DNA from: Rhizophagus irregularis
Taxonomy: Eukaryota > Glomeromycota > Glomeromycetes > Glomerales > Glomeraceae
Direction: 5' to 3'
DNA length: 64,000 bases
Assembly: GCF_026210795.1 (NCBI RefSeq)
Contig: NC_089431.1
Location: 4,960,001 to 5,024,000 of the forward strand
Shown: positions 21,404-27,459 of the stretch, piece by piece
Layout: each line of letters begins with the position of its first letter
Position numbering within the stretch: position 1 is the stretch's first letter
The notes under the pieces: generated by a model
Database searches by the model: none
Seen by the model: only the letters and a program-made list of their open reading frames with translations
Told to the model about the DNA's origin: nothing
Position numbers and translations under genes: made by a program

Positions 21404-22338
21404 TAGAGCTCCGAATGGGTCAGGTCAGGTCAGGTTAATTGATAAACCTGACCTGAAATTTTTTTTCAGGTCAGGTCAGGTCAGGTTATATCAGGTTGTC
21501 TGTTTGACCTGACCTGACCTGAAACCTGAAAAATTTCAGGACTATTTTTATTAAAGTATTGAAAAAAAGTGGTACAAAACTTTTTTTTTAATATAATATT
21601 ATGAAAAAAAACGTTTTTGCAACGTTTTTTATTAAAATATTGAAAAAAAATATTGCAAAACGTTTTTTTTAATATAATATTATGAAAAAATGTTTTTGCA
21701 ACGTTATTATTGAAATAAATATCAAAAAAAAAATGTTACGAAACATTTTTTTAATATAATATTATGAAAAAACGTTTTCGCAACATTTTTTCTCGAAATA
21801 TTGCGATTCAACATTTTATATTAAAATCATATAAAAAAGTGAATCCCAATACTGCAATTCACTTTTTTATATTGATTTTGTATAAAAAAAGTGAGTTGCG
21901 GTATTGCGATTCACTTTGTTATATAGATTCTATATAAAAAAAGTGAGTTGCAGTATTGCAATTCACTTTTTTTATATAGAATTAATATAAAAAAGTGAAT
22001 CGCAATATCGCAACTCACTTTTATTATATAAAATCAATATAAAAAAGTGAATCGCAATACCGCAACTCACTTTTTTTATATAGAATCTATATAAAAAAGT
22101 GAATCGCAATATTGCAACTCACTTTTATTATATAAAATCAATATAAAAAAGTGAATCGCAATACTGCAACTCACTTTTATTATATAGTAGAATCAATAGT
22201 TTCAGGTCAACAGGTCAATCAGGTCAGGTCAATCTTCATACCTGACCTGAATTTTTTTTAAAAATCTCATACCTGACCTGAATTTCAGGTCAGGTCAGGT
22301 CAGGTTACCTGAATTTGGCTGACCTGTTCGGAGCTCTA
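21404..22338. mobile_element. 935-bp hAT-like nonautonomous element with 8-bp target duplication
   Basis: The ends are TAGAGCTCCGAA and its exact inverse TTCGGAGCTCTA. They are flanked by GTCCGGCC at 21396-21403 and 22339-22346, an 8-bp direct repeat as made by hAT transposases. Both subterminal regions are filled with CAGGTCAGGT / ACCTGACCTG repeats, a typical hAT subterminal pattern. The middle (21820-22190) is a palindromic tandem array. No protein is encoded. Confidence 0.85.
21820..22190. repeat. Palindromic tandem array, about 7 units
   Basis: Each unit is an imperfect palindrome AAAGTGA-(A/G)TTGC-..-GCAA-TCACTTT of about 30 bp, separated by a second A/T palindrome around TATATAGA-TCTATATA. 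The combined period is about 50-60 bp. Units vary at the two central bases. Confidence 0.8.
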
Positions 22339-22388
22339 GTCCGGCCGGGTCAGTTTTGTTAAGTCTCAAAAAAAAATTTTTTATATTA

Positions 22389-22422
22389 GGCCGGGCAAAA
22401 AAAAAATTTAGATTCTCGTGAC
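22389..22422. repeat. Left terminal inverted repeat of the DDE transposon
   Basis: About 34 bp, matching 26885-26918 in inverse orientation with roughly one or two differences and one A-run length change. TTA precedes it. Confidence 0.88.
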
Positions 22423-22544
22423 CCGGCCGGGTCTGTTTTACAAAAATTCAAGATTTTTTTTTTTATAGTAAAATTTTTTATCACGTGACTTTATATAATG
22501 AAATTATTAATTGTTTTATTATATAAAATTTTAATTTCAACATA

Positions 22545-25500
22545 TTATTTTCGTGATCTTTTTGATACTTGAAACTTGGTATTCTTACCACGTTTTTTTT
22601 TACTTGAAACTGTTGTATGACACTCATCACAATAATAATAAAATCCTTCATTTAAATTGGGTCTATCAGATTCGTCGCATTCATCTTCTGGTACTTTTCC
22701 ACACTGAAAACAAATTTCTTCAAATAAACCACTTGAATAATAAGAAATTTCTGTTGGATTATTACATATTAACCCATCATCAACTTTTACTTTTTTAAAA
22801 ATTTCTCCTACATAATCATGTTCACTATTCTCATCACCATTAATATTTGATTCATTTTGTTCCACATTTTCCACTAAAGCTTCAAAAGAATCACCACATG
22901 TATATTGAATGGTATCCAGATATCTTTCCAAAATGGATACTTCAAAGGGAGATAACTTGCTTTTGCTATATAATACACGCCATTTGTTGCATTCACAACA
23001 TTCAATTACTATTCCAACATTCCTTACAAATTGAGCAGTAGGACCAAATTCTATATGAGCTCTCTTCTTTTTTTGTTGTTGATTTAATAAAGATGGTCTA
23101 TATTGCTCTGTTGTAATTGTACCATATACATCCTCAAATTGTTTATAATTAGTTTTGTCAGCTATTGGAACTGGGTCAGGTAATGAATGAACTTGTGAAA
23201 AATCAAGTTCATCACTTCTTATTGGCTTACAAATATTACAATCAATTGCCCCACACTTTTTTATTTGAAAAAAATAATGACGTGACTTGCAACAGTGGTC
23301 ATAAAATTCTTGTAATTTAGCCTATTAAAATAAAAATTAATTATTAATTTTTAGTAATTATTTTAATAAATAAATATTAAATAAAATCTACTTACTTTAT
23401 CCTTAATATCCTTTTTTGTTCTATCATCCATATTTAATGAATCTTCAATTTCTAATAAAGATTCCCATAAATCTTTAATTTCTTCTTCTGTTGCTGATTT
23501 ATAAGTTATAAATGGCTCATCTTTTAGTGATAATCGTTCAAAGATACCTTCCATTAAGTTAATTGGTGCCTGTAAACTATTTATTAATTCATTTTTCAAT
23601 TGTGGTTCATCCTTTGAATATGTGCGAATTTCCTCCATAGAATTGCATTTTTTCATTAAATTTTCTAAATCATTACTCAATTCATCACGCATTAAACCAA
23701 TACTTTGCATACCAAGATTCAATATTGACATTATACGTTCAACTGGATTCTTCCAAGAATGACCTGGTGGAGTTCTAACAGCAATTAACAAATCTAAATC
23801 TAACTTCAAAAATAATGCTATTAATGCTAATTGAACACGAACATAAGTAACTCGATGATCAGGTCCTCCATCAGTATAAAGTAATAAATAAGGCTTATTT
23901 TCATTTGTATTATTTAATATTTTATATAATTCTGTCATATGGCGTAATGAATCTGATGGTTGAAATATAGGATCTTTTAAACTAATATATACTTGTCCAC
24001 GATAAAATGACTCTTCAATTGTAGCAGGAATTTCACATAACATTGTTACACTTGGAATGATACCACACTTTGTAAAATCATGATCTGCGACTTTAAAAGC
24101 CTTATTTTTTGATACTATTACTTGTCGCCCTCTTTCAACAGCTGCAACTGGATATCCTGGTTCACCTACTTTACATCTATGTTTATCATCCATAAAAATT
24201 AACCATGAATTCATACGTAAAAGTATTGCCATTTCCTTTTGATAACGAAACAAAGCACTAGCATAATGTAAATCTTCATGATTACAACGTAATTGCCTTG
24301 CTTGCACCATAAATTTAATTGGGAGTTTACCAGTAAATTGCACACTACTTTTATGTGTTGGATTTTTTGGCCAAAATTGTAGTCTAATCCATTGTACAGA
24401 TGGAATTGGTATATTTGGAGGACAAATTTTAAGTACATGATTTCGGAAATCACGAGTTGAAATTGCAACTGCAAGATGCTGAAATATATCATGTCTTCTA
24501 TCATCAACAGCTAAAACAGATTCTTGAGCTATTCCTTCTAAATATTTGGATGAATATTCCCAAAATACATCATATTTAGGTAATCTACCTTCATTAATTT
24601 CACGAAAATCCGTAATTAAATCAGGATCTCCTAATTCAAACATTACTTCTACACGATCATCTATATCTTGAGTTTCTGAATTAATTGAAGCTGCTGAATC
24701 TTGTAACCAAACAGAATAGATATAGCGCATTCTTGCTTTTTCTACTTTTCCAATATAAAGTTCAACTGTATCTAAAAATTCTTTTCTCATTGCTCTTGTA
24801 TGGTAAACTTGGAGTGTCTGTTTCAAATTATTTCTAATTGTATAATGTTTGTTAATCATATCCTGTTCATTAACATTAATACCAATACGCCAAACATAAA
24901 CTGAATTTTGTATATTTCCATGATGATATGTGTATTTTCCTACTTTGAATGGGAAAGCCACCTTTAATTTTTCAACAAATCTAAATCTTTGCCTAATTAA
25001 AAATAAGAATTCATTTATTATTTATTAGTTTATCAGAAGTTATTTATATAGTAATCCCTATAAAAAATAAGTGTCCAGAAATTGTCCAGAAATTGTCCGG
25101 AAAATTTGTCTAAATAATTGTCCAAAAAATGTCCAGAAAATGCCAGGTACTATGTCCGGAAATTGTTCCGAAAACACACTCATTTCCGGACACTCATTTT
25201 GTCCAGAATTTGTCCGGAAATTGACCTGAAATATTTTTTCATAAAATTTGGCACAAAAAGATGATCAACAGGTGACCATCATTATAATTGTTTTTAACTT
25301 AAAGTTTTATATCATAGATATATAGTATTTTTGCCTGCTCAGCAAATTTAATTAGTATGACAAAGAAGGTTATGAATGCCAGTCTTGTGCTTTTTGCAGT
25401 TTTTTACAAAATTAATTTATCCTTTTTTGGAAGTAGCATCCAGAATTTGTCCAGAATTTTTTCATGTCCGGAATTTGTCCAGTTCAAATTATCTGAATTT

Positions 25501-26718
25501 TTACTATATCCAGAATTTGTCCAGGTTTATCTGTCCGGAATTTGTCCAAAATTTTATACTGGACAAATTCTGGATATATTCTGGACAAAGTCCGGATATG
25601 TCAAAATTTTAGGTATCGAATTTGTAGCAAAAAATAGACATTTTCTGGACAATTTCTGGACATGCCAGATTTATTCTGGACATTTTCCGGACATTTTCGT
25701 AGACATTTTCCGGACATTTATTTTTTATAGGGAATGTATTATTGCTACCAACTTACTTTCGCAACACTGGACAAAATAGGTTAATATTAACAGGTTCCCA
25801 ATATTCCAATTCCTCTAAAGTTTTCGTAAGAATTCGAAACTCTTTAACTACTTCAGGTTTTCGCCATGTATTTTCATCCAAAATTTCTATATATCCGGCC
25901 TTTTCTTCATCAACTACAGGTGTTAAAGAACTTTGGTTTCTTGCAGTTATAACTCTTTGACTAATTAAGTATTCAGCATACTTTAAAAGATTATTTGCAT
26001 AAAGCAGTAAAGGTTCTTTTAGCCAAGCAAATTTGGGTTTTTCCATCCATGGTAATTCAATGTAATTCATCAAAATCTTATAATGACGTTGTAATTCTTC
26101 TGAATCAAATGATCTTCTTGAACTTTTGTATTTTTCAGGATGTGCTCGATCAAAAAAATTGGTAAATAAAGCTGGGATTTTAAATCTCTCATTGAATGTT
26201 TTATAAGAGCAAATATCAACGCACCAAATAGATTTTGCCAAATCAGTAACAAATTTTTTTCCAATATTATTTGCATTATCCTTTCCTATCCAACCCCCTC
26301 CATTACTTCTAATCAATTCATTTAAATCTATGCGTAATTGTTCCCAAGAATTTTTTGCCGGTAATTTAAATTCTGGAAGATAATTATGCATTGATGCAGA
26401 TCTCATTAATTCGAATGCATTGATTGTATTCATAGATGGTATTTCATTAGAATCATTTAGTAATTTAAATGTTACATATTTTCCGCACTGATTTACAGTC
26501 TCCCACGCATTGCATTCCAATCCTATTTTTTCTGTTTCACCTATTTTCGTATGACTAAAATATGCTACACAATTTTTCTCCCATAGTTCCGGATTTAATT
26601 TGTCAACAACTACATCTTTAAAAAATTCTTGTATGTTCATATCTTTATTAACGGGAAGTCCTTCCCACTCAAATACTGTTTTAGAATTAAACACGACATG
26701 TACAATTATTATCGGCAT
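22545..26718 (-). CDS. DDE-type transposase with C-terminal zinc-binding region, three exons, 1111 aa
   Basis: Exons 25757-26718, 23396-24992 and 22545-23321, with GTAAGT donors and TTAG/ATAG acceptors. Phases agree at both joins and there is no internal stop. Residues 1-90 look beta-rich (opens MPIIIVHVVFNSKTVF), possibly ubiquitin-like. About 400-850 is the catalytic core: MDDKHRCKVGEPG (Asp 589/590), LYTDGGPDHR (Asp about 695) and GHSWKNPVERIMS (Glu about 739), with spacings of about 105 and 44. Exon 3 carries CNICK, then ECCECNKWRVL, which resembles the CxxC-x-KWR core of CW zinc fingers, then FQCGKV and YYCDECH, and ends in a basic tail (KKKRGKN, SKRSRK) that may be a nuclear signal. Expected role: nuclear cut-and-paste transposition of the element around it. 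I recognise the DDE arrangement but cannot name the superfamily. Confidence 0.82.
25056..25732. mobile_element. 677-bp MITE, CCCTATAA family, copy B, inside a transposase intron
   Basis: Same length, ends and internal TGTCCGGAA-type repeats as copy A at 6470-7146. AAT flanks it at 25053-25055 and 25733-25735. It lies wholly within intron 1 of the DDE gene (24993-25756) and leaves both splice sites intact, so it may be tolerated. Confidence 0.87.
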
Positions 26719-26884
26719 ATTTTTTTATGAAAAAGAGATCTACAGATCGATAAAGGTCGATTTATCAAGTTTAATTTATTTATATATTACAAAGTTACAC
26801 AAAATATAATAAACATTACATATAAAAAATTTTTACATGTATAAAAAAAAAAACCGGCCGGCCGGGTCAATTTTAAAATTTTAT

Positions 26885-26918
26885 GTCACAAGAATCTAAT
26901 TTTTTTTTTTGCCCGGCC
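26885..26918. repeat. Right terminal inverted repeat of the DDE transposon
   Basis: Inverse partner of 22389-22422; ends ...GCCCGGCC and is followed by TTA. It lies about 165 bp upstream of the transposase start codon, so it probably overlaps the promoter region. Confidence 0.88.
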
Positions 26919-27459
26919 TTATTACTATGCCGCGTGAGAATTTTTTAAAAATTGAAAAAAAATTTCGCATATAAAATTTTTGAAAAAAAAAATTAAAAGC
27001 CGGGTTGCCGGGTTATTGATGAAATTTTTATATTATGAAAACCATAAAATCAAGTTTGTATGGCCTTATATATTATTATTTACGTAATTTAATGACTAAA
27101 CATTGTATGTGATCATACTAAACTCAGTTCAAAAATAATTAAATTCACAAAATTCACATAATAATTTTGGTTAAAATGTTTATGAAAAAAACTATCACTG
27201 AATCTGGATAAATTTACGACTATACTTGTCGGCGATAGAATTTCTTATTAATAGTTTTATAAACTAAAATACGGTTCTAAATTGTTGAGCTTTATTGTAA
27301 TAATATTGTACTGTATATATATATATACCGTAATTTACTTTATTTATAGTTGTGCATCGAACAAACTATCACATGGTGGTGTACGCGATATGATTTAGTA
27401 ATAATGCTTAACAATTTTTTCATGACGTTTTTAAATGGAATAAATGTTGACCACATTCT
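26919..27459. other. Noncoding, with further CCGGGTTGCCGGG sequence and a (TA)n run
   Basis: Just outside the transposon, 26985-27025 holds CCGGGTTGCCGGG. A (TA)n run lies near 27309-27327. No gene was seen. It includes the 3' flank of the Sel1 coding half that ends at 27460. Confidence 0.6.

Follow-up and report, generated by a model that had tools for sequence, protein, structure and literature searches.

A DNA transposon of Rhizophagus irregularis with a transposase of probable ISAzo13/Zator affinity, long at its N terminus and bearing a multi-cysteine module at its C terminus

The stretch of DNA considered here (the window) comprises 64,000 nucleotides of the fungus Rhizophagus irregularis (assembly GCF_026210795.1, contig NC_089431.1, positions 4,960,001 to 5,024,000), and at window positions 22389-26918 it holds a DNA transposon of 4,530 bp that encodes a transposase of 1,111 amino acids. 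With a probability of roughly 80%, this is a cut-and-paste element whose transposase belongs to the ISAzo13 (TP36, which we take to be PF07592)/Zator assemblage, within a divergent eukaryotic lineage that groups with a second family found in this fungus and stands apart from bacterial ISAzo13. This placement is made because the second family, represented by locus L024, forms a bridge to the profiles PF07592 and NF033519, and because published work pairs Zator with ISAzo13. In the best reading, a long N-terminal part and, at the C-terminal end, a multi-cysteine module are features of the lineage. The element may lie inside Zator or beside it, Zator being known here from published descriptions. 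It is a new branch, and not a wholly new kind.

The inverted ends of the element begin 5'-GGCCGGGCAAAA..., and the 38-nt arms at 22385-22422 and 26885-26922, which include part of the flank, are 92% complementary, with TTA on either side of the element. A previous interpretation of the same DNA, based on its letters alone (the sequence-only reading), had described a DNA transposon that looks complete, with a TTA duplication and inverted ends, and the arms, the flanks and other copies bear this out. The borders are as follows:

22386..22388, no strand: target-site duplication, left copy, TTA (an empty copy of the host repeat is three bases shorter than the summed window flanks)
22389..22422, plus strand: left terminal inverted repeat (arm complementarity and copy comparison)
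26885..26918, minus strand: right terminal inverted repeat (arm complementarity and copy comparison)
26919..26921, no strand: target-site duplication, right copy, TTA (flank reading)

A genome of 146.7 Mb in 32 contigs was searched, and a 29-base end pattern, with up to three mismatches, was found 43 times in forward and 45 times in reverse orientation, against 0 and 0 for a reversed control, so that the ends are not a product of chance. The sequence-only reading had proposed such a search with the element's ends, and it does yield further full and internally deleted copies with TTA or TAA duplications. The second long copy (L003, contig C26), flanked by a TAA duplication, is 99.0-99.5% identical to the window element in the parts that both have, and the third (L006, contig C16) is 98-99% identical with a broken reading frame; this near-identity suggests, at the level of sequence, that the element has moved recently. 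Duplications were checked in 22 copies, two long and 20 short and internally deleted, the latter taken from at least 24 close end pairs (those omitted measure about 240 bp and about 525 bp, in one case each, and about 100 bp in two cases). A perfect 3-bp duplication is present in 21 of these (19 of the 20 short ones), being TTA in 13 cases and TAA in 8, with L057 (TTT/TTA) as the sole miss; in the window, TTA and TAA together account for 8.7% of 3-mers. Three short copies that were compared consist of the element's first 100-107 bp and its last 103 bp, with an identity of 86-89%.

The unoccupied form of the insertion site was sought with the joined window flanks, for which 40 places were scored among 328 candidates. 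Forty of the 41 listed matches cross the junction at 93-99% identity, 39 of them running from query base 69, 71 or 73 to 240 and one from 92 to 240. One empty copy read base by base (L198) is three bases shorter than both window flanks combined; in another candidate that was fetched (L197), the exact junction word sought was not present. The same search for L003 returned both flanks of L003 itself and, for the right flank (query 123-240), 38 copies, none of which crosses the junction. It is also observed that the host site (22337-22388 and 26922-27041) is itself a multi-copy repeat, as the 40 scored copies that cross the junction indicate, and that its left part holds CCGGCCGGGTCAGTTTT, which is close to words just inside both element ends (family D8).

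The transposase gene lies on the minus strand and has three exons and two GT-AG introns, giving after splicing exactly 1,111 amino acids without a stop. The sequence-only reading had spoken of a single uninterrupted gene of 1,111 codons, which holds for the codon count and, as to continuity, only for the spliced form. Three relatives (L009, L007 and L032) are uninterrupted across the exon junctions of the window gene, which supports the following model:

25757..26718, minus strand: exon 1, N-terminal transposase part, with the ATG start at 26718 (open reading frame list and splicing)
24993..25756, minus strand: intron 1, GTAAGTTG...TTAATTAG (splicing)
23396..24992, minus strand: exon 2, DDE domain (splicing and core alignment)
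Within exon 2, minus strand: the codon of D589 begins at 24190, that of D695 at 23872 and that of E739 at 23740
23322..23395, minus strand: intron 2, GTAAGTAG...TTTAATAG (splicing)
22545..23321, minus strand: exon 3, C-terminal cysteine clusters, conserved (KKCG...CNIC; CCECNKWR...YTCG; CFQCG...CDEC)

The catalytic core is of the DD43E type, with D589, D695 and E739 as its acidic residues and 43 residues between the last two, and it carries the conserved set DDK ... DHDF ... DGGPD ... S-x-x-NP-x-E. The blocks from which a DDE triad had been proposed are present in the spliced protein, and the three residues are conserved. With regard to the C-terminal part, the earlier mention of CW-like and other cysteine motifs stands in that CCECNKWR is present and the multi-cysteine region is conserved, and is not supported as to CW: the zf-CW profile, whose cut-off is 27.5 bits, scores 17.6, and among the relatives whose motif was compared the W of KWR is kept only in the near-identical copy L006 and in L032. 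The C-terminal clusters of relatives are of the types KKCG...C-x2-C, C-x2-C...(Y)TCG and C-x2-C...C-x2-C.

A search of the genome with exon 2 gave at least 81 matches (79 of 260 candidates were scored). For most of the divergent members that were compared, similarity covers the N-terminal, DDE and C-terminal parts, some fragment loci being without one or other of these. Ends were sought in seven divergent long loci and in L006, any identical 3-mer being allowed as the duplication, with TWA (TTA or TAA) not forced; this produced many chance pairs, from which the best 40-base terminal match was taken for the five loci below, and the pair with the fewest mismatches for L006. Five of the seven divergent relatives, which are 37-60% identical in the DDE exon, have GGC ends and TWA duplications:

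L032: ends GGCCATGC, duplication TTA
L035: ends GGCGATAT, duplication TTA
L036: ends GGCCGGACC, duplication TAA
L037: ends GGCCGCTCC, duplication TTA
L038: ends GGCCGTTCC, duplication TTA

Neither exon 1, which encodes the N-terminal part that the sequence-only reading had called beta-rich, nor the DDE exon has a Pfam match at E<=10, and for the DDE exon this agrees with the sequence-only reading, which had seen no signature of Harbinger, hAT, Tc1/mariner, CACTA or MULE. The single NCBIfam match of the DDE exon is to ISAzo13 (NF033519, E=0.08) and falls on catalytic blocks two and three, and the window protein reaches 12 bits against that profile's cut-off of 200 and does not match PF07592. 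The description of the transposase as unnamed is not supported by the comparison with a second large family of the genome (at least 79 matches), which leads to ISAzo13 and PF07592 and, through the literature, to the named Zator. Its representative L024 shares 33% identity with window exon 2 across some 200 residues (E=5e-21; hhalign 99.3), and is the best-scoring locus of a PF07592 search of the genome (E=0.0012). The whole of L024 matches NF033519 (NCBIfam) at E=6.9e-8 over 319 residues and PF07592 (Pfam) at E=2e-5 (3.8e-6 for a fragment), scores that lie under the curated cut-offs (31.9 against 200 for NF033519; 24.2, or 26.6 for the fragment, against 26.9 for PF07592), and two other members, L193 and L194, match PF07592 at E=9e-4 and 0.0042. 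That genome search gave 12 matches, of which ten (profile positions 18-55 or 21-56) and one (191-223) were discounted; all eight 18-55 matches lie within 100 bases of DDE_3 matches and therefore resemble the DNA-binding part of Tc1/mariner proteins.

The second family consists of ISAzo13-type elements (L024 and L190-L196, on contigs C29, C20, C11 and others). Two of them, L195 and L196, are 99.3% identical elements of 3,090 bp with perfect 27-bp ends GGGAGCTTACATATATTACGTAATTAT (GGGAGC...), TAA duplications, a 756-aa open frame and a G-rich run within one end; for L195 the end pair is the best-ranked one, and for L196 it stands lower in the ranking but has these same 27 bases. The likeness to the window family extends from the 33% identity in the DDE domain and hhalign values of 99.3-99.4 to the TWA duplication and GG ends of L195 and L196, with differences in length, end sequence and size of the frame. 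In members of both families, a run of C or G adjoins the inverted repeat at one end (L037:5201-5240, L038:5960-5999 and L195:4984-5023).

Profile comparisons were made with an ISAzo13 sample built from at least 80 loci of named prokaryotic contigs, fetched by a sequence motif, which gave 81 frames, 42 of them of 330-800 aa, with 33 (up to 450 aa) being used. The merged profile of both fungal families aligns with these 33 proteins at P=1.2e-4 over 270 columns, against control values of 0.43 for reversed ISAzo13, 0.63 for Harbinger, 0.073 for mariner, 0.66 for reversed Harbinger and 0.68 for reversed mariner; the second family alone (6 proteins) reaches P=1.3e-4, with controls from 0.07 to 0.84. 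A core alignment of 29 rows (14 ISAzo13, 10 window-group and 5 second-family) has 16 columns conserved at 90% or more, including D, K, HDF, D, G, S, N, E and R. The likeness to the bacterial and archaeal ISAzo13 family (PF07592, NF033519) lies in the succession of motifs H-x-D, D-x-K, G, HDF, P, D-x-G, P, S-x-x-N, E, R and in the 43 residues between D695 and E739, and the differences are an identity of 16-20% to window exon 2 in one alignment, a length of 348-439 aa in 27 rows against 1,111, scores under the curated cut-offs, and an unrooted tree of the 29 rows that splits ISAzo13 from both fungal families at 100/100. The window group does not come out of that tree as a single clade (31% of bootstrap trees). 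A search with the family alignment in bacterial and archaeal genomes and in viral contigs returned 43 and 46 pattern stretches, none of them relatives.

As to Zator, passages of PMC10045372 describe this eukaryotic group as related to ISAzo13, both making 3-bp target-site duplications; the relation is also stated in part of PMC5718144, and a passage of PMC7386202 derives Zator from TP36. The passages on Zator mention no TWA preference, 5'-GGC ends or Cys-rich C-terminal part. The likeness of the window element to Zator is therefore one of description, in the 3-bp duplication and in an ISAzo13-related transposase. The former is found in 21 of the 22 copies and in five of the seven divergent loci, and the latter is reached only through the bridging family, by way of L024 and the merged profile (P=1.2e-4).

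A number of results weigh against the placement with ISAzo13 and Zator. In a set of 11 proteins (A1, which includes the window protein and L024), PF07592 is reached at E<=1 by one, L024, and NF033519 by three, namely L024, the window protein (0.08) and, by elimination, L011; the remaining family matches of the set are scattered and non-transposase. The window group alone (10 proteins) aligns with ISAzo13 at P=0.019 and a probability of 2.5, with the catalytic residues in register, or at P=0.061 with the pair order reversed (controls: Harbinger 0.18, mariner 0.17, reversed ISAzo13 0.26, reversed Harbinger 0.53, reversed mariner 0.36), so that without the second family the link would be a weak one. 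Even the merged profile has an hhalign probability of 55.6%, which is not high. The second family is itself uneven, with L195 giving no PF07592 match at E<=0.5 and no NF033519 match at E<=1, and a search for the ends of L024 found none that convince, leaving the duplication of that family to L195 and L196; nor did the end search on the divergent loci L033 and L034 give anything convincing. The structural models are poor: a single-sequence AlphaFold model has a predicted local distance difference test (pLDDT) value of 32.7, and a model of exon 2 with 27 ISAzo13 rows, biased towards ISAzo13 by construction, has one of 46. The order of strands (E) and helices (H) predicted in the latter, low-confidence model (E273-278, E336-338, E343-345, H355-371, E379-384, H389-404, E412-415, H426-440) would place exon 2 residues D278, D384 and E428 as expected for an RNase H fold (D on beta1, D on beta4, E on the next helix). 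Its matches to structures in the PDB are mixed and give no fold assignment, with retroviral integrases at Z 4.4-5.8, Mos1 at 4.6, all Z at or below 7.0, and other rows showing Arp9, thiamin pyrophosphokinase and FabG. By sequence, exon 2 gave one chance-level PDB match (FIS, E=1.2) and exon 3 none at E<=1.

Such observations could also be accommodated by a separate, unnamed eukaryotic superfamily, sister to Zator and independently derived from ISAzo13/IS630-like ancestors, an explanation that we hold as possible though clearly the less probable one. It would account for a catalytic domain barely detectable with ISAzo13 profiles, for long N- and C-terminal parts kept across divergent families, and for the 100/100 separation of the element and the second family from ISAzo13 in the unrooted tree; on the other side, the TWA duplication, the DHDF/DGGPD/NPxER motifs and 33% identity are held in common with a family whose member L024 matches PF07592 and NF033519. 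Tentatively, then, the element might represent a new superfamily with an architecture of its own (long N-terminal region, DD43E core, C-terminal multi-cysteine module) and a TWA preference convergent with that of PIF/Harbinger, making up part of the fungus's unclassified repeats.

The TWA duplication also raises the question of a PIF/Harbinger element, since a passage of PMC4482050 gives TWA as the target duplication of that superfamily and copies of the window element have it too. A Harbinger origin is nevertheless very improbable, no relation to the DDE_Tnp_4-type transposase being detectable: alignment with seven Harbinger proteins of the fungal genome gives the P=0.18 (window group) and 0.63 (merged) listed above, none of 42 PF13359 matches overlaps any of the 81 listed family matches (lists compared by eye), and at E<=1 none of the 11 A1 members matches PF13359. 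In addition, most autonomous Harbingers are said in the same source to carry a second gene with Myb/SANT. Among ATG-initiated open reading frames of at least 100 aa no second gene was seen, although a small or split one could escape; between 21000 and 28500 such frames correspond to two exons of the transposase and to one frame within a nested insertion. The Harbinger identity was rejected, as the Harbinger transposase does not match despite the common duplication.

Equally improbable is a divergent Tc1/mariner (IS630) element, for which it can be said that Zator and TP36 are placed in or near the IS630-Tc1-mariner group in a passage of PMC7386202 and that the ISAzo13 and mariner profiles match one another (hhalign 91.9). 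Against it stand the mariner comparisons (P=0.17 for the window group, 0.073 merged) and the element's own 3-bp TWA duplication, with a net gain of 3 bp at the empty site. A TA duplication is usual for Tc1/mariner. This identity too was rejected, on the hhalign P values and the 3-bp duplication.

Under the placement with ISAzo13 and Zator, transposition would begin with binding of the transposase to the inverted repeats, followed by excision through two-metal RNase-H chemistry at D589, D695 and E739, and the excised element would then be joined to the target at TWA, with joints staggered by 3 bp. The cysteine clusters of the C-terminal part may act by binding zinc and by contributing to the recognition of DNA or chromatin, and the short derivatives could be moved in trans by the same 1,111-aa protein.

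According to passages of PMC8647823 and PMC11075540, unclassified repeats make up 24-32% of the R. irregularis genome in published analyses, and later curation brought the classified share of the genome to 36%. The curated repeat library of 2024 used a Zator profile, and the passages concerned (PMC11075540) name no Zator families; Zator and the fungus are both mentioned in PMC11075540 and PMC5237450, and among the publications listed none is devoted by its title to Zator in R. irregularis. The window family (at least 81 matches) and the second family (at least 79) are candidates for a share of these unclassified repeats, now that their enzyme, ends and target are defined, and they supply an intermediate that links eukaryotic elements with bacterial ISAzo13. 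It is of consequence for automatic annotation that a TWA duplication and GG ends are not in themselves proof of Harbinger.

Intron 1 contains the nested insertion referred to above, for which copy L003 is an empty site:

25056..25732, no strand: foreign insertion of 677 bp with inverted ends CCCTATAAAAAATAAGTGTCC and an AAT duplication

The interior of this insertion is packed with repeated words of the TGTCCAGAAATT type, in both orientations.

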